A stretch of DNA of 64,000 nt, taken from Sipunculus nudus. Lineage: Eukaryota > Annelida > Sipuncula > Golfingiida > Sipunculidae. The stretch covers positions 21,880,008 to 21,944,007 of the forward strand of contig CM049313.1 in NCBI GenBank assembly GCA_026874595.1, read 5' to 3'. Under the pieces are notes generated by a model. The model was not told where the DNA came from. It ran no database searches and was given only the letters and a program-made list of their open reading frames with translations. The position numbers and the translations under genes are program-made. Shown here piece after piece: positions 18,532-56,700 of this stretch (position 1 is the stretch's first letter; each line of letters begins with the position of its first letter).

Positions 18532-18585
18532 GACGTTCAGTTTGTGGAGAGTGTATATTATATAAGAAGGAACGATGTATTCGGT

Positions 18586-19615: not shown

Positions 19616-19619
19616 TTAA

Positions 19620-21712: not shown

Positions 21713-21727
21713 CAAAAAAGGATAAAA

Positions 21728-21928
21728 ATGGGGAGATTTAAGGACAAAATAAAAGAGTTTACGGAATACACAACCATTCACGGGGTTGGACGTCTGTCAG
21801 CATCAAAAGGTGTCTGGCAAAGATTCCTGTGGATAACATGTCTTCTCGCAGCGTTAGGGATACTTTCTTGGCAGATGTCACGTTTGTTTCGCAGGTACCT
21901 TGAAAAACCAGCTATTGTGGATATCCGG
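21728..21928 (+). CDS. DEG/ENaC channel coding exon 1A (N-terminus and TM1)
   Basis: Encodes 67 residues from the ATG: cytoplasmic start, FTEYTTIHGVGRLSASKG with the conserved His-Gly that controls gating, then a hydrophobic helix (about 32-54) and the first extracellular residues up to VDIR. The donor is CGG|GTAAGT, phase 0, joining exon 2 at 33831. The start has context AAAAATGG. Copy A differs from copy B at Ala25 and Ala41 (Gly in B) plus two silent sites. Splicing from here to exon 2 would have to skip exon 1B and cross about 11.9 kb. Confidence 0.88.
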
Positions 21929-23329: not shown

Positions 23330-23364
<35 letters not shown>

Positions 23365-23608
23365 CATATATATACAAATATACACACATACATGCCCTGC
23401 CCTTTTTTCAGCCCCCACAACATTTTAAAGGGTTTCGGATATATGTTTGCGTCACTGATCCTCTTCTTTTCCGGACCTGTTGCCCTTTTTATGCGTTGTC
23501 ATAACTCCTGCTGAGTTAGAACCCCGTTTTCTTTTTACCCCTGTAATCCACCCCTGTAATAGATGTATTAGATATATTAGATATATAGATATGTATATAT
23601 ATATATAA

Positions 23609-23639
<31 letters not shown>

Positions 23640-26600
23640 TATAAATATATATATTGTGAAACCCCGCTAACGCGACCCCTTGCGGGACCAGGCTAACTGG
23701 TCGTGTTATGGGGGTGGTCGTCTTAGCGGGATGCTTGTACATTAGTCTGCCAAAATTAACGCAGGTTATAAAATTGGTATTTCAAGTAAATGTTAAGTTG
23801 TTGTCCCTGTTTAATTTAAAATTTAAATATAAAGAAAAATAAATAACACACATGAATATGATTCAAAAATGTTATTCACATAGAAATAAAACACACAAAT
23901 GAAACAAATCATTTGCATTAAAGTCATTCTTACAGCATTGGACTTAACACGAAGATGATCTGATGTCGAACATGTAGTGAGAACAGAATAATCACGTCAA
24001 GTTTTAAGTGTTATTTATATGTTCCTGTTTGATCCTTGAAATCTGATTTGTCACAGTTTTACTTTACTCACCTGAATATATGCGTGTGGTGTCAGTTATG
24101 TTTGCAAAACTCCTTTTTCTTATCAGTATGTTAAATGCTGATCTAACAGCCGTACTCAACAGACAAGGTAACGGACCATGGAGTCCAATATCTATTGATG
24201 TGTATATGGTGGGCGGCATTTTAAACAAGCCTAACCATGGCTGGTCGGATGATTGTCCAGCTAATTAATCACGAGCTTTATCTAAGTCCAAGCTGGGCGG
24301 TAAGCCTGTCTGTCACCTGCTCAACGGGCCGCGGTCGTCACGGGCCAGTGGTCGTGATACGGTTAATTAATTACGGGCTATTATCTAAGTCCAGCTGCGT
24401 GGCATTGCTCAACGGGCCGCAGTCGTCACGGGCCAATTGTCGTGATACGGGGGCTAATCTGAAGGTCGGTACCAAAAAAGGTGGTCGTTGGTCGTGATAG
24501 CGGGGTGGTCGTGTTACCGAAGCTTTTATATGATTATTTATATAAGACAATTCTGGGACCAAGAAAAGTGGTCGTGTTAGCGGGGTGGTCGTGTTAAAGG
24601 GGTGGTCATCATACAGGAGTCCACTGTATATATTAAGAGAGAGAGAGGGAGAGAGAAAGAGAAGGAGAGAGATGAATATGTTGATCCATTGTATAGAGAT
24701 AGAACATAAATATACAGATAAGCCGGTTCACTCGAACCAATGACTTCCGTTTTGCGGGGGTTTCTTCTACCACGAAGCTAATCTAGGTCCTCAATCCCTC
24801 AATGCATTAGCATACATTTAACATCACAGTAGTGACGTCAGAGTGATGATGAGGATGATGTTGTTCGTCCATCGCTGTGTGAAAGGTGACCATGCGTATC
24901 AAAGTTTTGCAGGTGATCTAGGTTTTTGTTTATGGAGATGACTTATAAGGCCAATACGGGTACGGAAGAACCTCCCACATGTTGGACACATGTGATTGGT
25001 GGTTACTGTTGAAGTGGCCATGAGACCTTAAGTTGCAGAGCACAGGTGCCTCATTTGATGGTAATTTCAGTACAGTTTTATTTTCTGGTAGCCGTCTTCT
25101 GTCTAGAAGGTAACTTCAGTAGGTTGTTTACTAAAAATTTCAAGGCCAAACACCTGCTTATCTGCATTTTCTCAGGGAATGGTCTCTGGAGGCGTGTTCA
25201 TTTTGGTATTCATGTAATTAATGATAGTCGGCATAATAGAGGGAAATGATTGACAAGAAGACAGTCAGGATCTGTGACGTCAGCAAGCACATATAAGCCG
25301 TGTTTGATGAGAAATCGCGACAATTGCCATTTTAGCGCGCCAGTTAGGTGTAATGTGACGATTTTCTGCAGTCAGGTGGCAGGTCTGCGTTCATCAGAGT
25401 CAGGGCGGCTTAGAGACGATGTCTGTAAGTGTAAATTGTCAGTGTCTGTGGAGGGCCATGCTGATACTTGAGTAACGGACTTCAGAGTGGAAATCGCATA
25501 TACCAAAGGACTGGTAATTCCACGATATGTATCTGCTGTGAGCACTTCCAGTAACAGGCCAAGGGCATTAATCATACGCGAAAAGACAGAGGTAGCAAAT
25601 GTCGTTCTGTGGAGACATGTTCAGTTACCTGGTGTGGTGCTGGACGAATCTAGGAGATATCAGCTGTGAAAGACATTGATATAGAATAGCCTGTGCATCT
25701 ATCTGTCAGTACTTTGTGGACTTTGCCACTAGGAAGGAACGTGTACTCCAGCAAAGAAATAATCATGGTTGGATCCCTGTGTATATAAACAAGAGCGAGA
25801 TGACTGAGCGAGCGGCTTAAGATTCCCGTGCTACGTGTGCGCGATAGTCATGTGATCAGGAACTATGTAGACAAAGAGAACTTTCCTGTGCAGTGTACAT
25901 AATTGACTAAGTAATTTTGTTATCTAATTTTGACGCTTGTGATCATCGATATTATTTTGTGTGGAATGCCTCTGCTGAGAAATGTAAGTTTAATTTTAAT
26001 ATGTTGATTTGGTTTTTAACTCGTTGCTTATTCACCTTTTGTTGTGTATGAATGATTGACAGCCGGTTTGGTCTACCATTTAAAAGAACCTGGTCGTCAA
26101 GTCCTATGGGGCTGTGACAGCGATATTCGAGATATCATTTTCATATTCGCGATATCATGTTCATATCTCGAAAACCTTTCTTTTTTTGTCCAAAGTGATT
26201 ATTAAAGAAAATGTTTCTGTTACATATGCCGACATCTTACTGGATATTGATTTCAGGTGGAAGTGAAAGCCGCTATTGTGTCAAAAGACACACTTCATGT
26301 CGTTTAGTATGACTTGATCGACAAGATGCTCAATCATATATATTGCCTTGCATGCCTACATCATACAGCCCTCTCAATTAGATTGTTAGTATTGCATCGA
26401 TAATTCATTAAGAATATTACTAAGGATCACGTTATTTCTGGTTGACCCTATTTAAACAAATTTTACTACACAATGAAGCTCTTCCCAACCCATTAATAAA
26501 GCATTTATTACAGCATTCCCAGGAACTGGACCTGCGTAGTTGGTCCCCTCCCCAGCGGATGTGTATTTAATTGTATGTATAATATATGTCACCACTCATT

Positions 26601-26686
26601 TTGAATCGAACAAACTTTAAAAAATAAACACTTTTGAAAATAACAGTAAGAGGGCTGTAGTTATAACAATGTCAAAGCGTCTGTGT

Positions 26687-26731
<45 letters not shown>

Positions 26732-29700
26732 CAGACATACGCCATGAACTTGTATATATCGTCTTAGTGAACTACGTTTGCGATAGGCCATTTTTTAGAT
26801 TCTACGGGTTTTATCCACTGATTAGCAGATAATAGCAGACTCAGTGTAACGGTTTAAATTTTCCCCGCTTCCGATTACCAGCCACCACCCACCCAACTCG
26901 TAAATCTAGCTTGCAATCATATTCATGGGGGGGGGGGGGGGGGTTAGGATGACCTTGATTTAAGAATAACCTTCAGGTAATTTTAAATCGATTTGAGACT
27001 TACACATTAGTGTCATGCGCTTTTATTCATAAGCATGAGTCATTATCCATAATATTAAGAACAAAATTTACATTGCACATCTTTCCTAGTTTTACATTGA
27101 ATCTAGCTTTAAAGCCTGTATCTTTAACATGTTGTATTCGTGTCATATATCATGCGTTAAATCATTATAATTTAACATTAAGTGAGGAATTCAGTGAGGA
27201 ATTTTCTTAGAAGTGAAGGGTTCACCTGAAATCAAGTCTTAGCTAATCCTGGGGATAAACTGATTTCTGTCTCGGGGGCTGGGCAGTAGCTTGAAGTATT
27301 TACCCCGCGCAATTAACCCGAAACAAAGTCCGAGCTTCCTCCCAAGGTTAAAGAGAAACCTTTTCTGGGTGGAGGATGGGGATGGACTTGAAAAGAGGAG
27401 TAGCTTGAAGTATTTCCTTGCTCCGTGTCAAGTTCACAGTTCGTCTACAAGTATGCCCACGTAAGTTGAGTCCATGTGCTTCCTGGCTGTCAACTATATT
27501 TCACAATCAATAGATAAAACTTATTGAATTATTCACAAAGTAAAATCAGTGAACAAGTGTAATGCACCCTTCTGCTGGAAAAATAATATCCTTTATTAAA
27601 CAATCCACTTGTCATTAAAAGTTAATCGTGTCGATTGCAGTATATATTAGCAACACTGTTTAGAAACTGTCCCTTTGTTAACATATTTCAGAAGCGGGTC
27701 GGGGGGGGGGGGGGTCAAGAGGCCACCTCCCTTTTTCAGCCACCTCAACCCTTTCTTAAGGGTATCTGGCTATTTTGTGGGCGGTGTGGAATAATAACAA
27801 CAAGTGATTTGTTTTTCAGATTTAGAATACCTAGAGCTAATTATCTTTCTTAACCCCTTTTTGAAAGTTTTTTTTAAATTGAAGGAACTTGATAATCTTG
27901 AAAAAAAGTCGTCTTAAAAATAAATAGGAAAACAAAATGCCTGGGAATTTTAATCGTCGTACATGTATAAATAACATATCAAGTATTCATCTGGACTAGT
28001 TAAGTTTTTTTTTCAAAAACTAAATAAAAAAATCAGCCTGCTCCGTATCAACGTCCGTGGAACCAAATGTTGGTTTCTGGGATCTAACACACATACCATC
28101 CGCGCGTGTTGTAAATCAATGGGCGATGAAAAAATAACCACTTTGGGGAAACGTTCGCGTGCAGCCTCTGCCGTGTACGATTTCCGAATTTTATTGCATT
28201 CTTTCGTGCGGAATCCATATAGGAGCACCATTTTGTTTTATTTTAACAGTTCTATTTGATATAAATCTGCATGCACATCCACAGCAAAAGTTTATCTACA
28301 TTAAGTAAAAGTGTACTCCGCCAGAACCGTGAAAACTCATCTAAGTAGTACACATAGCTAATAATTGGTCTGGTAATTTTATAAGTGACAATGTAGTGGA
28401 AAACATATGTTAAAAATGAAAAAAAAAAATAGTGTCTCATAGAGTTTTCTAGGGCAGTTTTTACAGGAATGTGTCTAGAACCCTCACACATCTCTTGTGA
28501 GGAGGAGCAAAACCTCCGCTACACCTTTGTAATTTAAATTCTTGCTGATCCCGGGCTGATTTTTTTAGCAGATGTTCGTTTTATATTTTGCTTGCCGCCC
28601 ATTACCAGTGTCGATTCAATGTTTGAAATAGGGGGCGAATCCGACGGCCTGCTTGGCTTGCTGCACCATTAATTATCCAATTATTGTTCATCTTTGAAAA
28701 AAAATGTTTATGGTAGTAATATCACAGAATAGTATTTATTTGTTGCTTTAATTTTTTTACTATACATTAAAAAAAAATAATACATACAACTGCCCTCTGA
28801 TATGTGACTCTTCATTGTAAATAGGTCATTGATAACGTATATATTTGTTAATTATGACAAGTATAACCTTATTGTTTTTTGTAGGGGCTGCTAACAATGA
28901 GTATCGGATACCGTTTCTTCAAAATTGACTTTTTTGTTGAGTAAAAGGGTTTTTTTGTGGTTTTATCGATATTAATCATTCAAAATCTCGCGAATTTTTT
29001 AGCCGTTTATATATATTTTTGACAGGGTTAAATATGTAGAACCAGTTGAAGCGATTGAGACGAAGCTTGGTTGTATAAAATCTCGGTAAAAGTTCCAATA
29101 GTGCGGACACTTAGCAATGGAACGTTAAAATCCTAATTTTACGGTTGCATGTCTAGCGAACAAACATCACAGCATTACGCTACATAAGCTTTCAGCAAAC
29201 TCATTGGTTGTCATATCTATTGTCAGCAATAGATCGATCTCTTGCAGTAAAACAAATAAATTTTTCAAGGAGCCAATTGGGGAAAAAGGCAACCGGGAGA
29301 CATAAATGGCAAAGTCATCGACATGACACATCAGTGACGTCAACTTCAGTGACTTTGAAGAGGTGAAAATTTATTCGCGTCGGTGTACAAGGGGCTTGGT
29401 GTTTTTAGCAGGTTCTATAGAAGCATGTTCAACACAACGAAGTGGCGTTGATACATATATATAGTCAAAAACTGTACAGATGCGGTCAATAAAGACCGGT
29501 CGCTTTGCACGAAAACAAATTTCGCCAACAGTTTCTGACGTTTTCGACAATGATTTGAGTGAAGAAAAGAGAAGCCGCGCTAATCCTCAGAAAAAAAAAT
29601 AACGTAGAAACCAGAACACATAAAAGTACATTTGGATTTGGACCATTTAATAATTCATGTTGTACTAATAGTACTATTAATTCAATTAACAGTAATAGTT

Positions 29701-32700
29701 CATGCGGATGAACTTATTTTAATACTAAAACCAGAACAGAGGGTCTTTTTTTTACGAACGAAGAATGAACAGGAAAGGTGCTTTCAAATGTTGAGGTTTG
29801 AAAGGACGGATTCTCTTAAACCTATTCTCATTATTTAAAGCAAAGAAGGATAAAAATGGGGAGATTTAAGGACAAAATAAAAGAGTTTACGGAATACACA
29901 ACCATTCACGGGGTTGGACGTCTGTCAGGATCAAAAGGTGTCTGGCAAAGATTCCTATGGATAACATGTCTTCTCGGAGCGTTAGGGATACTTTCTTGGC
30001 AGATGTCACGTTTGTTTCGCAGGTACCTTGAAAAACCAGCTATTGTTGATATCCGGGTAAGTTTTTTTCATAAATGAATTGAACATTTTGTTGAAAATTG
30101 TCTTATCAAGTTATCAAGCAGAGGTTTGATAGTTTTATCAAACATAAACACAACAATATATATTATTCAGGCTTGATTAATGGATAAATACTGCATATGT
30201 TTAGGGCCTATATTATATAGTCCTAACAAATGTTTGCGTGAAAGAACAACATAAATGTTTTAACAAATTTATTTATAATAAAAAAGAAAACACACGAGTA
30301 TCACCACAAATGGATAAGTTAATTAAAAAAGGTAAGCATTTAAGCAGTATAACGTGCTCTATGGTAAATAAGAGTCAGTCTGAAAGGTGTCATCTTCCTC
30401 CCTACATATAGATCCATGTATGTTTATCCTAGACACATCGAAGGTAAGGATTCCATTATGTTTGGTTTATTAGCTACTTCTCATTTCAAATTAATGCTTC
30501 GTCAGCGAGAGAAGAAAAAGATGATTATTAGTGCCTAATTGGCCAAATAAAAAAATAAACGTACGAGGTGTGTAAACCATCGCACCTGGTGGGTAAGATC
30601 CTTGCCGGTATTAATTATATAACTGGTCATCACGGCCGAAGGTATGATTGATAGAACGCGCCTCCCTGAACGGGGGACATTGATATTGGTCTGTCTGTAT
30701 GTCCCTCTGTCTGTCTTATTTTCATGCGATACCTTCCCCTAATATTATTCGATACCTTCCCCTAATATAAAAGTCAGTGATTGCTTTTATGGATACCTTG
30801 AAAAGGCTTAGTTTTTGAGTGTCTGTCTAATTTTTTTCTCTCCAGCTCCAAAACAATAATATTAAATTTGGTCCGATTTCATAACCTAAAAGGCACCAGG
30901 AAAACTTAACACAACCACAATGACATGTTGAATCATCTTCAGGGAAACATAAAACTGAAACATATTGGTCCCGATAGTATGAAAGATAGCAAATGGCAGA
31001 AATTGGGACTTCAATTCCACAAATATGTTTGTTCATCTTTGTTCTTCTCTAACTTAGCGATTGCGGTGGATGTAAACAAAGGCATGAATGAGAACTTAAA
31101 AGAGATACGAGAAATCGTTTTATTTAAACTATAATTCTTTTAAGATCAAGAAAAGAGGTAGTAACTATGAAAATTGTTGAAAATTAAGGAACTGCATCCG
31201 GACAACACATGGCTTATCTACGAGTTTGTCCTTCCACCCTCAGTCGATGTTTGAAATTCCGTGTATTCTCAAAAAAAGTTAATTACCCAAATAAATTTCA
31301 TGTAGCAACATCATAGGTTAGACTAACAAATCAAAAAGTCATTATAAATTTATTTACATTTGATAATGTTTGATCCTAGCACCCAAGAATAATTTGTTTC
31401 AAAATCTTCAGTATCTCAATAATTAATGTATAAAATCCCATGTTTCCTAAGCTTTCCGAGCATGCGTAGTGTCATCAGGTGCTTAAGACTGTTGTCGCCA
31501 CCTGTATATATATTTATTAACTTTTAAGATAGTTTTGTTCTATGTTTGGACCTTCATTGACAGCAATTACATTAGTTTCTTAGCTTTGGTTTCATCTAGT
31601 GTCATGGAACCTTATATATGTCTGATCAGGACTAGTTTTATCAGTTCCTGCAGACTACTGGCGCCACCTTATTTTTTTTTTTTAATTTTATTTTCAACAC
31701 ACTTTTCCTTTACCATTATGTATCAGTGATATTTATTTCTCAACTGAGGTTTAATCAAGTGTCTTTTTTCATCATTTCAAAAAGACTGTTATTTTTATAT
31801 TTTCTGAGCATTTTCCTTTAATTATTAGACTGCCAAATCCATCTATAGTATCAGTTATCAATGTTGACTTTTGAGAGGATCTTCAGCTGAATTATGATAA
31901 TAATCATAATCATAGAATTTCATATGAACCTATTAACTTGAGAAGAATGCCATATTTTGCCCTCAATTTTGAATCACAACGTTTGAAGTACTGCATTTTT
32001 TTGTCCTCTCATTTCACACACACGTTGTTTAATCTAAGTTCTTGAATAAAATCGAACAACTTTGGCCAAAGTTTCAATGCAACACCTTCCATCATTGAAA
32101 ATCCCTTACTATTTAACTGAGGATGAATCTGTAATTTTAGAGTTCACAAGGTTGAAGGCCAATGTCACATGGTCCACTAGAAAGGCCTTTTAATGCATTT
32201 AATACCAAACTAACATCCCACACCTTCCATAAACACAATTGAATTTGCTGTCACAAGGTCAAATACAAGGGCCATGAAACTCTCTTCATTGACAATCTTC
32301 AGGGTACAATATAAGCATCCTGTCATCCAAAACCTTCCATTTTTCACAGTTGGCTCTTATACCTTACTCTTTGACTTTAAGGTCACAAGATCAAGGGTCA
32401 AGGTCACAGGGCCGGCCACCTTTTGGAAAAATCACAACTGAGCGTGGTTACACATGGGTCCCTAGTTTTTCTTGCTACTAGCTAGGAATAAACGATCCAA
32501 ACCCCCCTCCCCCTACCCTAGTGGCAAAAAGTAAATAATAATAATAAAAATAAGTAAATTATATCGCCAAGAGTGTCAAGAGAGAGACAAACACTACTGA
32601 GAGCCGAAAATATTATAACGACAAGTGGTTCTCCTTTGGGCAAAAAACACAATGTAGAGTATGTCATGAAGGACTAGATATATACATTATGGAAATCGCG

Positions 32701-35700
32701 AAATTCATGTAATTACATTCCTTTAGTTAAATATGTAGCGCGTAGACTTGACATCGCCTAATTTTACGCGATTTCTCTCAGTTTATTAAACTAAGTATTA
32801 GCTTATTCATGACTCAGGACATGTTTTCTACTCGTATGCCTCGTTTGTCATTATAAGCGGACTGAAAATGAAAGTAGACCTTTTCCCCTAGCAAGCCCTG
32901 ATTGTGTCCGGGATTTAATAAATGAGTCAATTGGAGAGAAAACAAATCTTGCTAAACAGAACACTGTTACCTTTGGGATAAGAAGAGTGAATCATATCGA
33001 TCAGTTTAAAAAAAAACAACAAGTATATACTTAATGTGGAGCTTTGGGAATTAAATCTGAAAACAGTCAAATCTTAATAACATATGACTACAATAAATAT
33101 GATTTTGTAAGACCGACAACATAAATTGCAAGTCTGGTGACTTGACATTGCTTCAAGTACACATATTTTATTCGCTTCGCGGATGGCATGCTTTGTTATA
33201 GCAACTATGTTCAGTACATGATCGATATAGGTTCCATTCATGCAATCGTGTTCGCAAAAATATGTGGCTTAATGTTGATTTCGTATTCAAATATTGACTG
33301 AGGTATACCGCTAGTTATATCGTAGTGAAAAAAAGTTGATATTCTATGGAAATCATTCTCAATTATCTGGCACGGTAATGCAAGACAGGTGATTAACAAA
33401 ACTAGTGGTACACCCAGAATTTCGACATGCGATACTGGTTTTAGTGTTTACGCAAAATGAAAGCCACAAGAGTGGTTTCGAGAAAATGTTAGAAAAAAAC
33501 CTGTGATAGTTTGTTAAAGGGATGGGGAAGTGGTACGAAAGTACTCCGAGGACAACGTCCCGGTAAGAAAGAGATTGGTAACAAGGGCCACGAATCGGTG
33601 AAGTTTATATCGGAAAAACGCTTTTGAACCACTCCAAAATCTTCAAATTATACTTAGATTCTGAGCAATATCAAACAATCTTTGTTTACGCGCTAGTCAA
33701 TCCTCTGACATACCGTAATAATTTGAGTGTGTTTCACTGGACTCGGTATTGATACTCGACCTATCGTTTCTGCCTCTTGGCTGAATATTCAGTACTTTTC
33801 GTGAATAACATTATATCATTTTCGTTACAGGTACATGTAGAGGAACTTGACTTTCCCGCTGTGACAATCTGTAATGTCAATCAGTTCCGCCGTAGCCAAG
33901 CAAGTAGGGATGAATACCTTGACGCGGCCATCAGTAACTTCGCTGAGGCACTGGAATCTCAATTATACTCTGGCTCTGGAGACAACTCGAGCTCTAACGA
34001 TTCGTCCAGTGCGACCGCACCGCAGACAGTGAGGAGAAAGCGCGAAGTAGCCTGGAAGTCATTTGAAGAAACATATGAGGCAATTCCTGCCGGGTCAAGT
34101 AACTTGGGAGAGGATGGAGAAAATCACATTGAAACATGGTATGATGAAGGGACTGATGATGATGATTATGATGCTGATGAAATCCTCGAGGTTCACCTTC
34201 GGAAAAAAAGGGATGTTACACCACTACACGGCATAACAGCTGAGGGTCCAAATGGCATGGCAACTGATGATTCAACAATAGGGCCAGATGAGGTAAGTTC
34301 TTATATTAAGTTAATGTATACGTATAGCTGTGTATATTAAAGTGGTTTACATTGGGATATAGAGGGCACATACCCTTTTGTTTATTTGATTTTAACTACG
34401 TGAAAATGGATTTCTTTACAAGTTCACTCCCTGTTACGGTTGTATTAAAAAACCTCCAAGTTCCATTTGTTTGTATCACGTCATATGTCCGCCTTCGAGT
34501 CGGAGTCATCCGGAACCCAAAGTTCGAATCCGAGCCCAAGTTCATTTAAATATTCTACCAAAGCATTTGTATATGATAATTTCAGGCTATCATGTACAAT
34601 TTTAACTTAGTTCAACTATGCTCTTACTATAATGGCTTATTACATTTAGCTCATGATGAAGAACTTGGTATATATAGTGTTATTATTTTATAATATTCTG
34701 TGTAAAGGTGTATAACATTTCTTGATTACATGTTACATCTGTTTTTTTTCTGTTGAACTCGAAATAGAATAACTACTTTTTCTCGATACCTTGCCTTCAA
34801 GTCCGAACACAGAACCCTCGAATCCAAGTCTTAGTCCTGGACATCCGCTCACATTTGTCTGGTTCTTGGCCCTGTGCCAGGAACGGTTTTTACCAGACCA
34901 AAGAGAGCGGGTATCGCATGTTTAAAATAAGGGGCATGATGCTCTATGAGATACCATGCTTTACTTTGTCTGATTACAGCTTATTCCAAGCACTCCATTA
35001 TGTCACCGACTGGCGTTTGATTATTTATAAGTGTTTCTTAAACCACTATTCCTGCCAAAATATTATAATGCGTCTCCCCTTGTTTCGATTAAAACAGCCT
35101 TTTTTATATGCTGCGGAGACCATGTAAGAGAAACAGGGGATATGAGTCAATCCCCCCTGCTATCGACCTCTCTTTTGTCCATTTTCATCCGATCTCATCT
35201 CCCCCCCCCCCCCCCCCCTGTGTGCGGCCTTCTGAATGACATTGCTTCAATGTTTTGTTTCAAAAGCTGCTATCTAAAGAATTAGCGATTACTTTAAAAT
35301 GCAAAACACTATAAACATATCTTATATATTTAAATATATATATTTTTATAAACAATATAAAACATATGTTATTCTTAAATCATTAAAAGTCTAGACTTTG
35401 AGGAAAAAAACTTTTATGACATGACCAAAGCGTCATACATTTATTCATTGTCAAGCGTGATTTATACAATGGTTCGCGCACTGGATTTGTGACTGCAAGG
35501 TTATGGGTTCAAACCCTACATCGCTCCAAGACATTTGACTATTGTCTTAATTGCGAGGGGGCGCCCTGCTCTCTCCTGAGTTAATAGGTATTGCTGATTG
35601 TGGGCCGGCAAATGTAGGATGAACAGCTTTTTACCCCCTATCTTTGATGCCTTGGTTACATCCTTTATGTTTTAATAAAGAGGCCAGAAAGACCAATAAT

Positions 35701-38700
35701 GCATTGTGAACAGTCGTGTGTGACTGGCAGAAAACTTTCTCTACCGTTTCATAACCCCGCGTGTATATTTATTCAATGGGTTTTCGTTTACAAACCCTCA
35801 ATCATCTAACTTCCGACAGGTTGATTAATTTCTAAATATAAATATCGTCGTTGGTCTCGTTCCACCAAAAATGTAAGTATGTATGGTTAAAGCTGCACCC
35901 CTCCTAGTATTACTTGTGTAATTCTTCCAAAATCCATGCATGTATGAATTATCATTGTCAGTGTCATGTATTTGTATGAATAGTAATATATATTTAGTTA
36001 TACATGAAACCATATAGGAACCATTTATGACCTTTTTTCATAACAAAAGTTTCGGAGGGACATCTTTAGTTAAGAGAACTCGGATATCGATAGGGACTAC
36101 GTTTAGTGTAACCGGGAGTTTTAAATGTTAATATATATGTTCATTAAGCAGGGGCGTATATTATCATAATCAGGTGTTGGCAAAATACGGGCGCCCAAGG
36201 GTTGTTGTTGGCTTGGAATGATTATTTAATATTTAAATAGGAATTTTTTAGACTCATTGAAACCTATCTGAATAGGAACTACATTAAGTGTAGCCGTGAC
36301 AACCCGACTCAGTAGGCAATCGGATAATTAGGCTGGTAAGCCTTCTCGAGTCGTGATACCAGTAATATGGAGGAATGTATCGTAGTGGTCTTGCATCTGG
36401 TTGCATTCATATTGTGGAAAACGGCCCATAATCTCATAAACTCATAAACACAATAGTATATATGTGAGCTCGCTACCCAAACTGAAACACCGTCTCCATG
36501 GACACGGGTCATTTCCTGTGTCGCCTGCAAGTTGACTGCGTCCTGTAACCCATGCGAGCCATGCTTGTGTTCATGCGGTCATAAATTCAACAAATATGCC
36601 GAGGGGTTTACTAATATGCTGGGTTAAACAAGAACTTTTCTCGCTCATATTTGGTATTATTAGAAAGTACTCAAAAAATGCTAACGAATGGTCTGGTTTA
36701 TGTTGATTTACAGTGTACCTGTAGCCCATGAAGCGTTATCAGATATGACGAAAATATTTGCATCTTCATAAAGCCTAATGATGCAATCCTCAGACGCAGA
36801 TGTCATGAAACTCTGGCGCCAGTAATCTGGTTATAATGCCAGAGGGTCAATATGACGCTACCTTAAGTGTAACCGAGAATTTTAAAAGTTACTGTATTTG
36901 TTCTAAAAGCAGGGGCCGTATATTATCATAATCAGGTGTTGACAGAACACGGCCGCCCAAGGGTGATTGTTGGCGTGGAGGGATTATTAGATATTTAAAT
37001 TGGATATATTTAGACTTATTGAAACCTAGCTAAATGATTTTTTCAGCTTAAATATATTTATATATATATATTTTTCAAACGAATATTAAGTATACACTGC
37101 CTCGTTTGGTTTGTTTATAATAACTACATGAAGAGTAACCGATAATTCAGACAGTATATCACTGAATGTATAGTTTATAATTTACTATACTATAAAACTC
37201 CAACAATCGGGTAACACATTCAGTAAGATTTCTTAAAACTAGTGATTCCTCTAACTTTTCAATCAAATTTATATGATTTCTGGCTAACTTTGCGTACATA
37301 TAAATGAACTCTAGGTAATTTCCGTTTAGAAATGAGGGTGTATGAACTAGTTTATCTACGAGCTGTTAGTAATATTTAAAAAATAAAAGAAAAAAAAAAA
37401 TAATATTACCTAAAATGATTGGTTGCTTAAGTGCTGAAGTTGAGAGGTCAGTAATACTGCCCTTTAAAAAATATTGGTTCGTCGACTTAACGCCAGATGT
37501 CCTTGTTGAGTGTGTTTGGAGGTCCCCCGCCCCCCGGCTGCTTACAAGTAGATATGATCAAACGAACAGCCTCTGTCCGGTGCGATTGGCGCTGTCTGGC
37601 CTAAATGGTTCAAAAGATTATCCACTCTCAATGTAAAGCATGAGAGACACCTTCAAATTTGAAACCACGTTTGAAAATATACATGTACACCCGACGAATG
37701 GTCACTCAGGGAAAAGCCTTATATCCTGACTATATTGTACGCCCCTGCTAAAATTATAAGAATTCCGTTGTATTATACAAATAATTCCATGAAGTTATAA
37801 AATCCGCACACTGTATAAACAGCCTTATTTTTTTATGAAGGCTTCGACAATCCCCCCTGATGAAGCTTCCACTACTGCCCCAGAAGACGCTGTTACCACA
37901 GAGAGTAACGACCGAACAACGGATAGTCCTGAAGTGAGCACAACGTCGGAAACTACTGAAAATGGAACAACCGACAGTCCTCAAGCGATTACGGCTCAAC
38001 CACGACCAAGAGCTACCCCTGCTGAAAGTAATTATGTGAGTCAACCTACGATTTTATTATGCTGAGGTTGACTGGCTCATGTGGTCTCGGGGTACACCAA
38101 AGCTGGTACTTAGCCCTGTCTCCTAGTCCCCGACTAAAACGGAATCATTCAGATGTACATACTGAAGCTAAGAACCAGGTATGTCAGTATTTAACGATAG
38201 AAACGGTAACCTCACCGGTTTAAGGCTGATAAAAAATAGAAGGCTGTGACATTTTGCATTGTTTGTGTTATATACATTCACTCCTCCAACGATGTCAGAC
38301 TTACAAATATCAATAGTGTCGACAAAGTTTCATTAACAAAAATATTCTCACTCTAAAACAAAGAAACAAATTTATTTGTCATGTTTTTTTTTAAGATGAC
38401 AACACGAGCCTTAAAACTAGTACCTCGACAGGGCAGTTCCGTAATTTTTACTAGAGCCACATGGTGTCAAATAAAAAGTACAGGAAACCCTCGAAATTAC
38501 GACCCCCTTCATTTAGGGGTGTCTTGATCTTCACCTTAAGGCATGGGAGTTTCCATAGATGTCCCAGTCAATTTGTCCCGGATGGAGAACAGTTTCCTTA
38601 TGTAACCTTTCACATTAAGTATCAAGTCATTCATGTAATTACTTTAAGCCCATCTATCACACTTTTTATAACAGTTCCCAACTATTTTGTATTCATCCCA

Positions 38701-41700: not shown

Positions 41701-44700
41701 GATGATCATTTTGGCATACATTCTGTGAGCTATGTGAACGAACCTGCATGATTTTAGTTCCCTTTAAGTCAGATGGAAACAAGTTTGACGTAAAAACTTC
41801 TAACTTAGCAGCTAGGGAGTATTTAGTTAAATCTTCCAGAAAACCTTAAATATGGAAGCTGTTACCTGTTTTCTAATGACCATTGGCAATGATTTTGAGC
41901 ACTCTTGAAGTCATTCCACCTATTGTTCAAGGTTCCTTGATAACTATATTTTTTCACTAGATCGTAAAAACGACGATTAATACATGTATATTTATCATGA
42001 CTAGCTTGATCAGTTCGAAAAGTCTGACGCCACAATCTGTATTTTGTTTTCTATTTTCACGCATTTTCCCCTATATTTTTAGACTTCCGAATTACAGCAA
42101 GATGTCAGTTTTTTAGCTGTAGCTTCATCTAGTGCCCTGAAATCTCAAATGTTTATTAATCATGACTAGCTGATCATTTCCGGAAAAGAGTGATGGTGTT
42201 AAACCTATGCTTCTTTCTATGCTTCATGCATTTTCCACTGTATTTTTAATATAACCCTATTGCAGTAAAGGTGTCAGCTATGGTTTCATCTAGTCTATTT
42301 AAACCTGGTGTGTTAATTATGTCACCTTTTGAATGCTAGACATATTCTTTTCAGTCCCATCTAGTACTCTTACATTCAGAAAAATTGCTCAGCCTACCCT
42401 CTGTACATAACAAATATGTATATTCGGCCTGTAAAGCTCTAGGGGTAATAAGGCATTCTCTCTTGAAGATAAAATCATTGTACATAACGCTTATCTTCTG
42501 GCAGTTCATTTTGTATGACTTGTGCTAATATCTGGAGTCCCTTTTACACTTTAATACCATTGACATAACCTCAGAATCGTCTTTCTCCTTATGTGCCGAG
42601 TCTCTACTTGACGATGAACTTAACCACATATAGTCACAACCGACTTATGATCAGTCTCTACAATAACGTCCGTTACCAGCAACTCCTTCAACATCCTGTG
42701 ATGCGTCTCTTGTGAAAGTTACTGGCTTTTGTACGCTGTAATATCTTAGTATAGGATAGCCAGATATTGGCTTCTCAAATTTATCGAATGCAGTCTGTTA
42801 CGATGCTAGCCTTGGTAACTCACACTCTTTGTGTGGAAGCTGACGAAGTGGCTCGGTCTCACCACTCAGATTTGGTGTGAATTCACCTAAATTTCCCATG
42901 GCCATAAATCTTTCCAGTTTAGTTACATTCTTGGGCTATAGTTTAACATTGATAGCCCTGACCTTCTGCGGGTCAGATTTGACGCATTCATCAGTGAATA
43001 CGGGAACCCTGAATGCAACATTGCTGACCTTGATTCCTTTCGCGAGTTCCAATTAATCCTGATCTCTGTAGCATGGCCATGGACTGCAAAGAAAAAAGGA
43101 GATTTCTATTATGGATTTCTGCTGAATCACCCCAAATCACATTGTCATCCATGATGATTTTTCATGATTTGCTTTAGAAGAAATGTTCAGGCGTTTTTGT
43201 ACACATATCTGGCTAGGAGGAAATCCAAAACTGAGCCTTTATACATTATTTATGTATATGCCTTTCTCAAAAGTTAGCAAAGCTTCCCTCAAAAATGTTT
43301 ACGTACATTTTTGCTGATTCAGCTTCACGATAGACAACACCATTGTCGTTTTTTTTCTCTTGCTAAACACCAGCACGCAATCGTTCCATTGCTTCAGTAC
43401 CTTTGTTTTTTGCACCACCTGCATATATATGCTTCACCAGTATAAAAAAAAACAATTCTGTTCCGTACAGAGTCCAGCTGATGACTACTACATCCCAAAA
43501 GTGAACCTTACGGGCAAAGACTGGTTCACTGCCGGCTCCGACAACGCTCTTGTGGCTAGCTCTGAGAACCTGACTCGCATTGTTGCCCAAATGGATCTAG
43601 AAGCACGTCGGGATTATGGCCATCAAGTCGGGGACTTTATTCAGGAGTGTACCTACAATGGGAAAACGTGTTCTCCTTTGTACGTGTCTCTGATATCTTT
43701 TTCTGTCACTCATAGTATGTATTGTATAATTTTAATGATGATAAATTACCACATTCATACCACATTTTAAAAAAGCTACTTAAAAAACAAAGATTTGTGA
43801 CACATAATATACATATATTATTTATCACATAAGTTTATTTTCTTTTAAATATGTAATATAAAACGTTCATTGGTTTTAATTATTTAAGATATTTAAGGTA
43901 TGTTTTTTTTTTTGGGGGGGGGGGCAGGTTTGGTAAAAGCCGTAAAATTGAAAAGATTAAAAAAAAAGTCAAATGGTCTTGTTCATGAGTCATCATTAAT
44001 AAATGTATCAATACATGCTCAGCATTTGGAGAAAATGATGCATTATGTCCCCTTTTCGTAAAGAGTTGCATATACTGATATTTTCACTGATAACCTGTAA
44101 AGTATATTGAATACACTTTCTAAAATTATTCTTCTGACTCCACAGGAACTTTACAGGTCTGAACCACCATAGATATGGCAACTGTTACACGTTCAACGCT
44201 GGTGTGAACGACCAGGCAATATTGAAGAGTTCAAAACCAGGCCCGCTGTACGGTGAGCTTTAGGTTTAACTTCTTACTGTGACGGTGACCAAAAAACTGT
44301 GTTGACAGATCAATGTAAAACTGAGTGTTTATTTATCAGGGTCACCTCTAAATATCAGGTTTCTACCTAGATGGAGCGCTATGTTATTGAGCGACTCAGG
44401 ATTGCTTTTGTCCTATACTGATTATCAGCCTTATTTGGGGGCATAATTAATAAAACTATATTGGTCTTTGTTTGCAATGTTTCTGCAATTAAACATATGT
44501 ATAAACTGTTTTGTTAAATACTTTAGTTTACTAGACTCGAAACATCTTAATGATGGGTTTACACGAAATACACATCGAAGGGAACTCATGACAACTTTAA
44601 TTTTTATAGATTTTTTTTAAAATATTTTATTCAGTCACGATTTAGATATCTTGGAACCAGAGATAACTCTAATCATCAATAAGTCGTCCTAGGACTACTT

Positions 44701-47700
44701 GCTGAGTAAATAAATACACGATCTGGTCTTTATAAACGAATTACGTTAACGTCCATTCCGAAATTATTTTGGCATATGTAAGAAAATTAAATATATTATA
44801 TTACTTGACAGGATAATTTTTTTTGTTCAATATCCTGACAATTTAACGATATGCACAGTCTTTCAAATGTTAATTTGCAAAAGTCATATGTAAAAGCTTC
44901 ATTGTAATGGAAGTCATGTTTGGAGAAAATATAGGACACAGCAGATTAAGCAATGATTTCAACAGCACTGAGAAGTAATCTATAAATCTCTACCCGCAAG
45001 GCTTGGGTTCAAATGCGACTAATTGGATATGAATGCAAACAATTCAAAACACTTTTTCCAATTGGAAATCCATATACGTATTACTGAATAGTATTATTAT
45101 CATACGTATGCAAAAGTAAAAAAAGAAGCTAAAAAAACATAATCTGTATTTGCATAATTCAGGAGGCCTTTTGACTCAAACTCAGATATGCTAAGGCAAA
45201 GGGAACTTATTCTGTATTCAAATACAAATGTGCCATTTTCAAATGAAAAATAAAATGCATTTCTTCTTGAACTGACTTCTGTACCCACCATAACTAAATT
45301 TAAGTTAACAAAAGTGTTCGAGCATTTTTTTAATGTTACCCATCATAAAAGTGCCTAAATCAACCTGGTGTAAATTCATTTCTATAGGCTTCACGGTCAC
45401 CCTGTATATCGAGCAACAAGAATACGTGGAGGCTTTGTCGCCGGCGGCGGGGGTCAGGGTCCTCATACACAGCCAAGACGTCCAGCCATTTCCGGAGGAA
45501 GAAGGAATTGACGTCAGCCCTGGGCAGAAGACGAGCATTAGCTTAAGACTGGTACGGTCTAAGCCACCAAGGGTGGCCAATCAGTTTTCGCGTGATTTAT
45601 TGAAAAATTGGTTCAATTTGAAAAAAATAAATCTTAGTAAGCCAACAAGTTATATCAGTTATTTTTTACAAGGAAAGCACCACCTTACCTTTCAAAGAAC
45701 TCGAACGAAATCATTAAGATATTAATTGATAAAACAGTTTATTCATGTCATGTCACTACAAAGTGATGAGGGTGACAGGGTCAAGGACATTTTTGACAGA
45801 CTTTGATTATATGGTGGTAGTGCTTTGTACCACAAATATGATAAAATGCATAGGCAGCTATAAGATCCAATCCTGCGCTGTCACTTCATGAGGAAGTGTT
45901 TTGAAAGTTGAAAGCATACATTCAGTTATTTGACTAAAATATTCTCTTTTACCGGAATGCTGATAATGTTCTGTCATTGTCACATTCATAGACGAAAATA
46001 AAAACATGTCTAAAAATTGTAAAATTCGTTATGCGCCCTTTGATTATATTGACAATAAGAAAATCTTGTTAATGTACTACATTTTGTTAGTCCTTTAACG
46101 ATTGTTTTTTAGCTGTTGACAAAGTTGTCCAGAATACAACATGCGATCATTATGCAAAATGATCGAAAAAATGGGTGTAATATTTTCCCCCGTGTGTCAG
46201 TTTCAAGATAGGACTGAAGTTTTTGATTGTTTTATAAATTATTAATAAAAAGGTACTGTATGCTTAAGATAAAAGAAGGAACTAATATGTTATACCTTTT
46301 GGCTGGATGGCCATGAATTTCTTCATCTTTTAGAAGGTTCTATGTAAACTAGGGTTTCTGACATATTTTGTGACAGGCATTGGCAACAAAGCCGTATTAT
46401 ACTTATTGCTTATCAACTATTGTAAATTATTACTACAGAGTACGTTTATTCTTCCAGTCCCTTGTAGATCGTCTGCGTTACCCATACAACAGCAACTGCA
46501 CAGATGGAACTGGACAAAAAATCATGTATAACAAGAACTACTCAGTGGCGGTAGGTTTCCATTCCTCTGTGGATACTGGTTCCTTTCCATTCTAATATAC
46601 TTGGCCGGTAAATGTCGGTTATGAATAAAGGTGGAATGAAATGTGATATTCCAATATTTTATCTTGATTAGAGTATATTATAATTCATCAAGAGGATAAA
46701 GAAAAATAAACTTACTGTTTAAAAAAAAATGCTATAAACTTTTAAAAAAACAGGCCTTTTAAAACTTCCCGTTTTTAAACAGAAACTAGCTGTTCAAGTC
46801 AGGTAAAGTGCGCGTTCAGACCTTGGCCAACGATACTAAATCCTAACATCATAAAGCCAAGGAGAAATGTGATTTAAGTCCATCTCAGATGGTGACCAGA
46901 ATGCCCTGAGTACGCTATATCGAAAAAAAAAAACAATCTGCCCATGACGCTTCAGCTGAATTTTACATACAAGTGAAGCATGTATAAATTATGAATATTA
47001 TAATCGGATGAACAATATTTGTTAAGGAACTTGATAAATAGAAGGATTTCCAGTGCTCAAATCAGGCGTATTGTCCATATTCGCCAAAGACCTCCTCGAA
47101 TTTAAAGTTAGAAGCTTCTTGATCAAACCATTATGATATGTGCCCATCAGACAGTTTTAAAAATCATGTGTTTTACCTATAGCTCACAGAATATATGTCA
47201 TAGTGAACTAATTTCAACAGAGTTACAATACAGAGTTGCCAAGGGCTTCCCTGGATTATACAATAGAAGGTTATAAACCCAACAGTTAAGGTTTGTATCC
47301 AATGCTCAGAATCATGTTGTTAGCCAATATCTCGCAGAATACAGGTCACCATGACGTAATCTCATGTTTCCATGGACATCTACCCAGTACCTCCATTAAT
47401 GTAACATTAGAAAGTTCTTAGAAACTAAAAGGCCTAAAGGATAAACTTTGTGTTCCATCTGACTGTTTGGGTGCTCAAAATCATGTTTTCGACGCTTAGG
47501 TCGCACTATTTAGTTCAACCTGTCCGCAAAATTGAAAGGAGAATTGCATAGAACCTCTCGGGATGTTGCGTTAGAAAATTCTAGGCCTAACAGATATCAT
47601 TTTTGTCAATCTGACCATCAGGGTGCTCATATGGCATCTTAACATGGATCGAAGAACATATGTTACGCTGGCCTCATTTCATGTTTCCATGGACATTTGC

Positions 47701-50700: not shown

Positions 50701-53700
50701 GATTTACTCATTGAAAGCAGGCCATCGGTTTCTCAAGAGTACATGTGTTTCGTTTAAACGTATAATGGACCGTTTATTCTTTTTATCTTAATAAAAAAAA
50801 CAGGCATGTCTGCGAACTTGTTCCCAGAGGCACAAAATGGATGTATGCAAATGTGGAGATCCTTCTCTGCCAATCGTCGGAAAAACCTGTGTGTGCAATG
50901 ACCCTGAACGTAAGTGTGATAAAGATACATTTAAAGACTAATACGAGGGAAACAATATTATTTCATAATGTGCATATTTTTATATCATAACATATATTTA
51001 TTTAATGCAGTTATAATTAATTGTATTGTTTTACTATAGCACCAGGAGATGCAATTGATTGACCGATTCATTGTTGAAATAGTTTAAAGAATAGCTCAAC
51101 TTCGATATTGTGATACAATGGCTCCTTAATCTAGCGTCGTTCCACCTTAAATTTAGATCATAATAAGTTTGCTAAACAAAATGAGGTATAAACATATCAG
51201 CACATACATTGAACAGCTTTTTGCTAAACAACGATGTTCAAATCATGAATGGTCCATAGAAACAGGTCGTAAAAGTGACATAATCTACACAGTAAAGGAT
51301 TTGCAAATGTTGTTCAAAATATGCTTTCACATTGACGAAGATGAAGGTTTTGTTATGCAGGCATGTATGTAATATAATGATTTAAGATAAAATTATTTAA
51401 GAGAAGATTCACGGTATCTAGAAAAAGGAATTTATTATCCAAATATTCAACAAAATACTAACATTTGACGCATGTGTCACAATTCTGTATCAGACGACGA
51501 ATGGTAGATGGTTGATGTATGGTTGTTTGTGAATACGTTTGTTACTTTATTTATTTATTATTGTTATCTTTTTCTTCTGTTGTGTTTCTTATTATCCATT
51601 TGTAGTATTCTCATCATCACTTTTAATATTACTATCGTTTTCAAAAAGTATAATAACATTAGTTGAATTTACCTATAATAAGAAAAGGTGTATTAACAAA
51701 TTCACACGGCGATTAATATTAAGGATATGCATTATTATTTTTATTGTAGACTTTCTTTCAAACATTTTTTTATGATTGTTGTATTGATTGTTACTGGAAT
51801 GTTTGGAAATTAAGGGGCGAGGACGTATTCCTGCATAAACATCTGCTCTGTTCTGTTCATATCAGATATATGCCAACAGGAAGTACACATATTCCATTAA
51901 AACTCGAAATTATTATTTTAGAACTTGACTGTATCAAGCAGATTGATCAATATTTAGATGTCGGTGCTGTCAGATGCCACTGTCCTCAAAGATGCAGGTA
52001 AGAGTATTTTTCATGTTTTAGTGTATTACATGAAGTTTAATGGAGCTTGCTCATGCAAGCTAAAGCAATAATTAATGTTTTATATTCCTTTATCATATTC
52101 TAACTCTGATGCTCACCTTTTTCTGTTAAGGCAAATTATCCGTTCCATGTTACTTATTGATTTTGAATGAAAGTCCTCGAAAAGATTATTCTGTAACTTT
52201 TTCATTGAGGTGACTGCTTACAATTTTTCATAACTAGCATATTCTATTAGAAAGTATACGTTAGATAACAGGGCGAATGGCTAAAAATGAATGATTTTGC
52301 GTTAAACACACTACATAATATTTCAAAATGACATTATGCAAAACGTCTTCGCCAGTTTATCTATTTTCAGTAACATCTTTAAATATATTTCACTCGGTTG
52401 CATATGTGAATATATTAATTCTTGAAAGTTGGTATTATTTAAGGGAAACTTCCTACACCACGACAATATCCGCTTCTGACTGGCCAGGGAAAACATTCGA
52501 GGTAAACATGTTTATATTTTATATTCTTCAACATGTATGTCCCCAATACTATCTAGACTTCAGTCTTATCATCAGGACAAACAATTTAGAAACTACAGTA
52601 TAACATCACAAGAAAAACCTGCCTCTCTGGTGTAGGGTTAGATTACAAGGCTCAAAGCTAACTCCAATATAGGAAAAGGCTTTTAGTAAAATGGCATCAT
52701 TATATTTTTACGAATGTGTGCTTAATACTTAATTATTTTATCATGAGGACTCCGAAGAAATTTTATTTTAATTTTGTCGAAATCGTATTTCTTCCAAGCT
52801 TGTAAATTGGTGATAATGATCTCCCTATCTTCCAGATTAAAAGTCATCGATACGTTATTACTCATAAGCATTAAGAGCAAGATCTCCTATAACCAGAATC
52901 TCTGAATAAATCTGGTATTTTATCAGTTTTAAATATAAAACTTCGCATTTCTTTATATGTACATTGCATTTACTTAAGTGATTCCTATTGATATTTTCTC
53001 ACATAATTTTCCTTTCAGAGAGTCCTCAAGAAGCAATTTTCACGTCGTGACGCAAAGCTTCGAGAAGCTTTTAAAAAACATACGTTGAGGTAGGTGTCAT
53101 ACATATAGCATTCTTTCAGCGGCGTTCTATTAAAATTTTACTTTCAATCTCACCCTTTCAGTTGTTGTTCCTTAAAGTCTTTGTCCTTGTTATCTAATAA
53201 ATTCAGCTACGGAATGAGGTAAAGATTTCAAACCAGCTGTGAATACACTGTTACGTGGGTATTTTAATTAAACCAATAGGACCTGTTTTGGTCATGTCCT
53301 CCGTCATGGTGAAAACAGTACTGCAATACCAGTTCATGCTAATAGGTTTGACGTTCGCATCTCACTTTAGCGGTCACTCTATGTCCGTCGTCAGTCTGTC
53401 TGTCTGTCTGTCCGTCTGTCATTCGTAACCACTGGACCTAGAATCTTTTTACTCGACATTCCGAGGGACCCATAAAAATCTCACAGTAAACCTGTTATTA
53501 GGTCTCTGTTATTCATATCCACCGAGCTATGGGGCTCAGAATGTATATTTATCATGGAGTGTTCATCATTTCCTGTGAATGGTGGCGCACCTGCATTTTT
53601 TTTCAAATTTTTACGTAAATTTTCTTAATGTTTGAGACCTTCAAAGATAACGGTTGTCTATATCTTCACATCAAGGGCGGTCCTAAAAAATTTCCTTGGA

Positions 53701-56700
53701 AACCTTCAATTATGTCTCTTTTACCCACATCCTGGGAGCTATTGGGCTCGAAAGTACCTCCTAGCATGATTAAAAAATTTGATACAAATCTCAAGTATCA
53801 GAATAACAAATGCATTGATCACCATATTTTTGGATGCATATTGATCATGAAGGGTTTCAGCAGTTCCTGAAGACTGGTAGCGCTACCCTGATTTTCCAAA
53901 TTTTTACGAATTATTCTCTATTTTTGAGATCTTAATAGCAACATATGTCCCTTAACTGGGCACAACACGTAATCATTGCAACTAAAATCTTCAGATTTCA
54001 CATGCAGGGAGGTCCCTGAAAAAAATCTACGGAACCCTGGAATTAGGTCTCTGTTTCTCATATCCTGGGAGCTATGGGGCTCGAAATCACCTCCCAGAAT
54101 GATTTAACATTTGATAAAAAAAATAAAGAATCTTAAGAACCAATGCATTGATCACCATGATTCTTTGCACGCGTATTCTCCACGGAGTGTTTCCTTAGTT
54201 CCTGTAGACCGGGGGCGCATCCTGGAATTCTTTCTTTAAATTTTACACATTTTCTCTATTTGGAGACCTCTGAAGATGTGGTTGTCCGTTAACAAGGCAC
54301 AAATCGTAACAACTGGACCGAGAATCTTTTGTCTTGACGTCCAGGGATTTCCATGAAAAATCGCCTTGGAATCCTGAAATTGGGTCTCTGTTACTCATAT
54401 CCTCCGAGCTAAGGGGCTCAGATTAGCCGCCCCCCTCCAAGAATATTAAAATATGTCACAAAAACTGCAGTATGTGGACAGCTAATGCATTGATCAACAT
54501 GAGTCTTTGCATGCTTATTCATCACGGAATGTTTCCTCAGTTGCTGCATACTGGTGGCGCCACCTGGATTTTTTTTTTCCCAAATTTTACACATTTTCTT
54601 TATTTGTGATACCTTTAAGGATGTGGTTGTCTGTTCACAGGGCAAACATCCTAACAACTGGACCGAAAATCTTCTTTCATGATATCCAGGGAGGTCCATG
54701 AAAAAATTTCCTTGAAATCCTGAATTTAGGTCTCTGTTACTCATTGGGTTACTGTCTCAATTACGACAGGCACCCCCCCCCCCCCGTATCTGTCAAATAC
54801 TGTGATACTCGCGTTCCTTGACCATGTCCTGATATCCGAACGTTGGCCCTGGTCCTAGAAAAATACTAGTATATAGCAATAAAATACGTACCTATTTATT
54901 GGGCATTTCAGTGTATTTCTTAACTTTAGTATGTGACATTCAAAGTGTAATCATGTAGGTAAACCTCACTAATATGAAGATTGATTCGTTGATATTTATT
55001 TGAAATCAATGCGTGTAGATTTTTTTTTTCTTCCAGGGAAAATTTTCTTAAGATCGAGGTGTACTTCAAAGAGCTAACATATCAAAAGCTGACGGAAGTT
55101 CCAGCTTATGAGGTGCGTTGTTTTCTCATAATGATATTTCTACCAGTGTCACTGAAAATGTGAAAATGTCAATGTATTCTTGAAACTGTTTTAAAAGTAA
55201 AATACAAGCTTTTCAACAGTTTTTTGGGATAAGCATATTGGTCTGTTGAATGTTGACAACTATAAACCAGATTAGATTGTTATATTTTTGAGGTCCTTGT
55301 ATTAAAATGTAGTGCACAAGAAGCATCTAGGAATGATGGCAATTTCTTTGTTATTTGCGTGAATTCTAAACGCAAATAGTATTGAAAAGTCACTTTTTCA
55401 CCCTTGATAGCCCTAGTGTATATACATCTGTGTCTCTGCTAAGAAGGCTTTAGCATCATTTTAGAATTGCAAAAATATGGTCACCAGTTCACCAACAGTA
55501 ACAAAACAGTAAAAGTGAGACACGGTCGCAGTCGACGGCGACGGCGTGTTGGGGTTGGGGGGGGGGGGGGTAGGAGGATTTTATAAGTTTTGACAAACAT
55601 AAGTATTATTTGAATACGTTTCTTGTCATGGTTCTTCTGCAGGTCATGCTTAACATCTGTTCAGTGATCTCAACATAATGACTCTTACCTAATCCAGGCA
55701 TATCTCGTCCTTCAACTGCGCTGCGGTCACTGTTAAGTTCTCCTTTTATGCGTTTCATATAACTACTATATACTATAACTGCTGTTATTTGCGCTCAGAT
55801 TGTTTACATAATAACTCCGCCTCTTTTATTATCCTTGGTCCGTAATTGCTTTAACCTGCCAAATTGTTAGATCAAATACAAATTTAAAATTGTGTAGATA
55901 CATAGGTGTTACCAAAGCAGAAAAACCAACTAGCCGGTTCCGGCCCCTGGTTCCTTGAATTTTTCATATCGCTTCCTTTATACAAGAACCCCTGTGACAC
56001 GTTGAAATCATATTGTGGTATGAGAAAAAAACGTGTGTGTTTTAGGACTTCATTACATTTAAATGTTGAAACTGCAATTTCCTGATGTAAACACACGACA
56101 TACTGAGGAAAACTTTTATTATTCCTAATCAATTACATACCACTTTCACTTTATTATACCCCTATACTCGTATTCTACTGCTACAAATAAGCTAAATCTA
56201 ACAACATGGCCAATTCTGAACTTGACAAGACTGATCAGCCTCATTGTGTTTCGAAACATAACTTGGTCGTAGGAGATCACGTGTTCCTCAGATAATTACT
56301 GATGATTCATAAGACAACAGAGAGACCGGGCGGAGCGACATATTCTATCAATAGGGATGTCTATCATTTTTTATATCTTTTTGTAGGGATTAGCTATCTT
56401 TACTAAACGGATGTGATATTTTGTAGGTCGGGAGGGCTGTGCATGCTAAACTACTGTTTTATTTCTAGCTGGAGAACATAATTTTGGACATCGGTGGTCA
56501 GCTTGGACAAAGCGAAGGTTGATTTGTGTCTATCCTTATTAAACGACTTTCTTTCAATAATTGATGAACTTGCTTGAAAGTCATCGGAGCTATAGGGATC
56601 ACTCTCTGTCCGTCTTCCCTCCTGCCGTCCGTCCGACGGTCCATTAACATAGTACTAATCGTAACTTAATTTTCAAGTTATCGGGACATCTCTGATTTAT

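Follow-up and report, generated by a model that had tools for sequence, protein, structure and literature searches.

Paired polybasic sites around an acidic tract in the finger region of a predicted DEG/ENaC channel of Sipunculus nudus: a possible case of convergence with vertebrate ENaC

The window, i.e., the whole 64-kb stretch of Sipunculus nudus DNA analysed here, contains a predicted DEG/ENaC channel gene, the second exon of which encodes two polybasic sites, RRKR and RKKR, with a strongly acidic tract between them. We propose, tentatively and with somewhat less than even confidence, that convertase processing similar to that of the GRIP domain evolved convergently in this disordered acidic and mucin-like spacer, which would free the tract and raise the open probability of the channel.

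The predicted gene lies on the plus strand at 29856-59102. Its 13 exons were located via motif conservation and splice signals and together form a single frame for a protein of 699 aa; GT-AG borders are found at 12/12 introns, splice sites having also been a criterion in choosing the exons. Exon 11 was picked among nine candidates by splice score, frame and fit. The exons are as follows:

Exon 1: 29856..30056, plus strand, N-terminus with the HG motif and TM1, aa 1-67
Exon 2: 33831..34292, plus strand, palm strand FPAVTICN, start of the finger and insert with both basic sites, aa 68-221, phase 0 at both ends
Exon 3: 37841..38035, plus strand, Thr/Ser/Pro-rich (48% S/T/P) mucin-like spacer, aa 222-286, phase 0 at both ends
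Exon 4: 43471..43679, plus strand, end of the insert, finger segment, QECTYNGKTC, aa 287-355
Exon 5: 44146..44252, plus strand, RYGNCYTFN, aa 356-391
Exon 6: 45388..45551, plus strand, AAGVRVLIHSQDVQPFPEEEGIDVSPG, aa 392-446
Exon 7: 46458..46550, plus strand, aa 447-477
Exon 8: 50804..50909, plus strand, aa 478-512
Exon 9: 51922..51997, plus strand, CHCPQRC, aa 513-537
Exon 10: 52444..52501, plus strand, ETSYTTTISASDWPGKTFE, aa 538-557
Exon 11: 53019..53089, plus strand, aa 558-580, the least certain exon
Exon 12: 55037..55112, plus strand, ENFLKIEVYFKELTYQKLTEVPAYE, aa 581-606
Exon 13: 58821..59102, plus strand, TM2 with the GMS motif, C-tail and stop, aa 607-699

Exon 3 (37841-38035) forms a 65-residue phase 0-0 cassette, and an in-frame skip of it would shorten the spacer and keep both basic sites. 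The intron between exons 11 and 12 holds diverged repeats at 53663-54744 with 70-74% identity.

Upstream, the window shows a head-to-tail segmental duplication (11732-22623 and 22613-30753; 95.3% identity over 5.2 kb and 94.4% over 3.0 kb), which takes in channel exon 1 together with upstream DNA and could be either real or the result of two haplotypes assembled in tandem. The second copy of exon 1 (21728-21928) differs at 4 of 201 bases, giving two amino acid changes (both Ala here and Gly in the other copy), and has an intact GTAAGT donor; judged from its sequence, it is possibly an alternative first exon of the same channel gene. Only the first duplicate carries a 2.7-kb insertion (approximately 16915-19613) with terminal inverted repeats (GGTCTAATCATCGTCAAA) and TTAA flanks, while the place near 27740 in the second duplicate is without it. 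By its looks this insertion is presumably a piggyBac-type element; it contains a tandem duplicate of a 450-bp unit, and its 242-aa frame showed no Pfam domain. A retroelement remnant, apparently split over several frames, lies on the minus strand at 4243-7589; one frame encodes RNase H together with the zinc-binding and core domains of an integrase, and another has a zinc knuckle that scores under its cut-off. It is flanked by direct repeats (3031-3233 and 8539-8776; 77.7% identity), which, on sequence, might be its LTRs. The Pfam scan of frames took 10 of the 97 frames of at least 75 aa, and matches were obtained in 2; scanning the 64-kb window with Rfam (gathering threshold) and for tRNAs gave 0 matches.

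An HG motif, two transmembrane segments and a G-X-S filter in TM2 are the defining marks of the DEG/ENaC family. In the predicted protein, the HG motif is found at aa 18-19 and the filter, as GMS, at aa 623-625 within TM2; both TM1 and TM2 were placed by alignment to ENaC gamma, residues 26-110 of which align with exon 1 and the start of exon 2. The Pfam ASC profile (PF00858) matches residues 11-635 with an E-value of 9.4e-104 and 348.4 bits (cut-off 23.6) and is covered over positions 1-455 of 455, as expected of a member of the DEG/ENaC superfamily. The channel identity named in the preliminary description is thus borne out by ASC over the full length, and full-length ENaC chains are nearest among solved structures.

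The comparison with PDB comprised 32 distinct sequences at E up to 0.001. Best matches were the full-length ENaC chains gamma (222 bits), beta (206), delta (197) and alpha (192), which we take to be human, and further matches were ASIC1 (187 bits), ASIC2 (174), ASIC5 (161), Aplysia FaNaC (160) and Malacoceros FaNaC1 (125). The affinity to ENaC is modest, because the truncated ENaC constructs of 6bqn (158, 156 and 128 bits) score below ASIC1 and at or below the Aplysia FaNaC. The species names of the FaNaC chains follow PMC11026163 in part. Molluscan and annelid FaNaCs are likewise DEG/ENaC channels of lophotrochozoans, but their chains score lower against our channel than full-length ENaC chains and ASIC1; the closest similarity to FaNaC that marks a peptide-gated FaNaC/WaNaC channel is therefore not seen in the PDB scores. 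Among the NCBIfam models, ENaC (TIGR00859) is the best match with 377.7 bits, which is under its cut-off of 428, and degenerin follows with 341.8 bits (cut-off 598.45); no others matched at E up to 1. A PY motif (L/P-P-x-Y) has no match in the 699 aa. As an exclusion from ENaC this is weak, because delta ENaC also lacks the motif, which is ancestral in ENaC (excerpts of PMC8791634).

According to the available part of PMC10507113, clade B holds ENaC, MEC-4/MEC-10, FaNaC and uncharacterised protostome channels, and subclade I, near ENaC and MEC-4/MEC-10, includes uncharacterised protostome channels. By sequence similarity, our channel fits with clade B on the ENaC/degenerin side, and the invertebrate channels of subclade I would be its expected home, ENaC and degenerin being the two NCBIfam matches.

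The twin sites and the tract map within exon 2 as follows:

Site 1, RRKR: 34032..34043, plus strand, aa 135-138, followed by E-V
Acidic tract: 34044..34199, plus strand, aa 139-190, 52 residues, no Cys, disordered by charge-hydropathy prediction
Acidic core, EGTDDDDYDADE: 34146..34181, plus strand, aa 173-184, coded by an imperfect GAT triplet run (GATGATGATGATTATGATGCTGAT)
Site 2, RKKR: 34200..34211, plus strand, aa 191-194, followed by D-V

The stop-free plus-strand translation of 34032-34211 reads RRKR-EVAWKSFEETYEAIPAGSSNLGEDGENHIETWYDEGTDDDDYDADEILEVHL-RKKR. The residue numbers given for both sites in the preliminary description are exact in the assembled protein, and its strongly acidic stretch is confirmed with 18 D/E against 1 K/R. 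The same cannot be said of the tract length of 56 residues, which is the start-to-start spacing of the sites; 52 residues lie strictly between them, and the released piece would amount to 56 only if RKKR leaves with the tract. There is one proline in the 52 residues (AIPAG). Both sites have the form R-[RK]-K-R with E/D-V after them, and by homology they are extracellular. Acidic P1' residues are tolerable for furin, although not ideal. In all 699 aa, RX[KR]R occurs only at 135 and 191, and the looser R-x-x-R is found also at 52, near TM1, and at 694 in the C-tail. Site 2 is encoded by CGG AAA AAA AGG, with seven consecutive A.

With respect to ENaC gamma, two anchors delimit the insert: residues 5-91 align with gamma 26-110 and residues 321-647 with gamma 235-565. 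The unaligned interval between them holds both sites and comprises 229 residues in our channel compared to 124 in gamma. In ENaC, the GRIP domain with its protease sites is situated between alpha1 and alpha2 of the finger (excerpts of PMC6197857), and, judged by the interval between anchors 91 and 321, the insert occupies the same location. In the available part of PMC10743461, the distal site of gamma is RKRK186 and its furin site is printed as '43'. Our channel likewise has two polybasic sites around a tract in the GRIP position. If the furin site of gamma is taken as 143, as we assume, the spacing of the sites is approximately 43 in gamma and 56 here. The channel hence resembles ENaC alpha and gamma as a DEG/ENaC subunit with two convertase-type polybasic sites in the finger between the same anchors, with a tract of comparable size between the sites, and with ENaC gamma as its best PDB match.

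In contrast to the ENaC GRIP domain, the insert is longer, acidic, Thr-rich and free of cysteine. No Cys occurs in residues 82-345, so that the GRIP disulfide, common to alpha, beta and gamma (PMC6197857, in the part available), is impossible in it. For the GRIP strands P1-P4 no alignment was obtained, since the full-length match to gamma skips residues 92-320; a 158-aa fragment of exons 1 and 2 matched 22 sequences at E up to 10, of which 21 were DEG/ENaC, and its best stretches end by residue 35. The ENaC inhibitory peptides are 8- and 11-mers with prolines (excerpts of PMC6197857), and in its sequence the 52-residue tract is without evident counterpart. The channel further differs from ENaC in lacking a PY motif and in staying under the NCBIfam ENaC cut-off. 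Of the likeness to ENaC finger cleavage suggested earlier, the placement of the sites between the same anchors therefore stands, whereas GRIP homology does not, given the missing Cys and an insert that is unaligned past residue 91.

By charge-hydropathy, a crude method for short pieces, the insert (residues 92-320; 21% D/E, 30% S/T/P) is disordered overall, and 5 of the 6 sub-segments tested were called disordered, with the exception of 287-320, which scored as ordered. The cysteine-free spacer is predicted to be disordered over approximately 175 residues (112-286).

On the evolutionary scale, PMC8791634 infers that alpha and gamma each acquired their polybasic pair independently, at about the time of the transition to land, and ties the vertebrate pairs to terrestrial life; in the part of this source available, the lamprey subunits listed have no polybasic pair and no ENaC subunits are reported from nonvertebrate chordates. 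The presumed independent gains in vertebrates and the lamprey subunits listed without pairs make an "old regulatory mode", one of the two options in the preliminary description, unlikely. Common descent of the cleavage pair is very unlikely, because the vertebrate pairs are presumed to represent independent gains and no ENaC subunits are reported from nonvertebrate chordates. Any cutting of the channel studied here thus probably evolved separately from that of vertebrate ENaC, and convergence is the sensible form of the twin-site claim.

The mechanism that we have in mind is the following. The gene product would be a Na+-channel subunit of the DEG/ENaC family, on its ENaC/degenerin side, with a long Cys-free spacer that separates the beginning of the finger from its next conserved segment. 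During Golgi passage, furin or another proprotein convertase would cut after RRKR138 and RKKR194; convertases work in the Golgi and cut behind polybasic motifs, and in ENaC the functional effect requires double cleavage of one subunit (both from excerpts of PMC8791634), and exactly two RX[KR]R sites are present in our protein. An acidic piece of approximately 52-56 residues would be freed, and the two chains would stay joined by the folded disulfide-rich domain. Loss of this piece would alter the mobility between finger and thumb and, by analogy with alpha and gamma ENaC of vertebrates, would most likely raise the open probability. The piece would act mainly by charge, because no ENaC-type inhibitory peptide is evident. 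For cutting at both sites, as suggested by the motif, we see about an even chance, while activation by cutting, which draws on the analogy with ENaC, is rather doubtful. In its full form, the idea that release by double proteolysis evolved twice, with an invertebrate channel of the ENaC/degenerin clade shedding a 52-residue peptide extracellularly and a Cys-free acidic electrostatic clamp replacing the GRIP fold, appears unlikely.

According to excerpts of PMC6197857, activation through proteolysis of extracellular tracts sets ENaC apart from all other DEG/ENaC channels. For invertebrate clade B channels, paired furin sites are not mentioned in the available portions of PMC9822975 and PMC10507113; the word 'furin' has 0 occurrences in the main text, as far as available, of these two and of three further DEG/ENaC papers, PMC10148893, PMC11026163 and PMC9234716, and PMC12919962 yielded nothing on paired furin sites in invertebrate DEG/ENaC channels. 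Among the matches listed for the terms used in the open-access literature, no invertebrate DEG/ENaC channel with paired furin sites was found, which leaves their absence unproven. Relatives were sought in viral and prokaryotic collections only, with no bearing on conservation in animals. In viral contigs, pattern matches numbered 8 for the full protein, 48 for exon 6, 13 for part of exon 13 and 8 for exon 2; in prokaryotic genome contigs, they numbered 224 for exon 6 and 169 for part of exon 13, with 0 confirmed in either collection.

The main rival to convertase processing is an unselected, fast-evolving, low-complexity extracellular linker, the basic clusters of which would be species-specific accidents or be cut without consequence for gating. 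We consider it possible, if well short of probable. It is the main rival because polybasic motifs can stay uncut, as human delta ENaC has RLQR and yet remains uncleaved (excerpts of PMC8791634). Finger helices 1-3 are, moreover, hard to align even among FaNaCs (PMC11026163, in the part available). Predicted disorder of the insert and of five of its six sub-segments is consistent with such a linker. Acidic and Thr-rich low-complexity sequence tends toward fast change. The acidic core is coded by a GAT triplet run and hence may be unselected; together with the A7 run in site 2, this means that slippage could have created, or could alter, both features. Upon shuffling of the whole protein, at least two RX[KR]R were seen in 460 of 20000 cases (2.3%), so that chance comes into question as the origin of the pair, and shuffles of the ectodomain gave at least two in 729/50000. 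An RX[KR]R pair 20-80 residues apart appeared in 58 of 20000 whole-protein shuffles and two R[RK][RK]R at this distance in 2/20000. Against the linker, two four-basic runs are rare when residues 92-320, which contain 15 K/R, 8 of them within the two sites, are shuffled (at least two RX[KR]R in 5/50000; the region was chosen after the sites had been seen); in addition, both runs end in R and their spacing suits excision. The clustering of the sites is unusual for the composition, and as one protein was judged post hoc, the shuffles are no demonstration of selection.

Quite unlikely, in our view, is that a two-chain subunit requires cutting in order to fold, be sorted or assemble, and that relief of inhibition is not its purpose. 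The same sequence evidence for the sites, and the same Golgi cleavage after polybasic motifs, would speak for this role; however, one site would suffice for it, and two sites with a tract between them are unneeded.

Three further explanations are far less probable. An ancient GRIP domain including its cleavage sites, shared with vertebrate ENaC by common descent, could draw on the same interval between the same anchors and on the ENaC-like sequence affinity; it was rejected in view of the missing Cys and the missing alignment of the insert to ENaC GRIP, and the presumed independent gains in alpha and gamma and the lamprey subunits listed without pairs (PMC8791634, in part) also argue against it, leaving it highly improbable. 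That the channel doubles as a precursor, with the excised acidic peptide as a secreted signal or ion-binding peptide, is suggested only by the prohormone-like layout of a peptide-sized piece flanked by convertase sites. Neither basic site is preceded by a Gly for amidation, and with a single such peptide in the protein and no precedent among the literature matches listed, we give this explanation very little credence. Removal of the segment from the mature mRNA by alternative splicing was thought unlikely from the donor scores of exon 2: its own donor scores 12.4 and no internal donor exceeds 3.4, and the exon, of phase 0 at either end, is not skippable as a whole because it includes the conserved FPAVTICN strand. 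The two best internal donors (3.4 and 3.3), neither in phase 0, come near the lowest-scoring true donors of the gene (3.5-4.2 in leave-one-out scoring), and exon 3 is a skippable phase 0-0 cassette, but the basic sites are located in exon 2, so that this explanation retains only a slight probability.

If convergent processing at the twin sites is true, the same layout with a different insert would mean that this finger corner of the fold has repeatedly been turned into a protease switch. It would, furthermore, provide an independent test of the role of the excised tract, i.e., of a sequence-specific wedge versus bulk charge.
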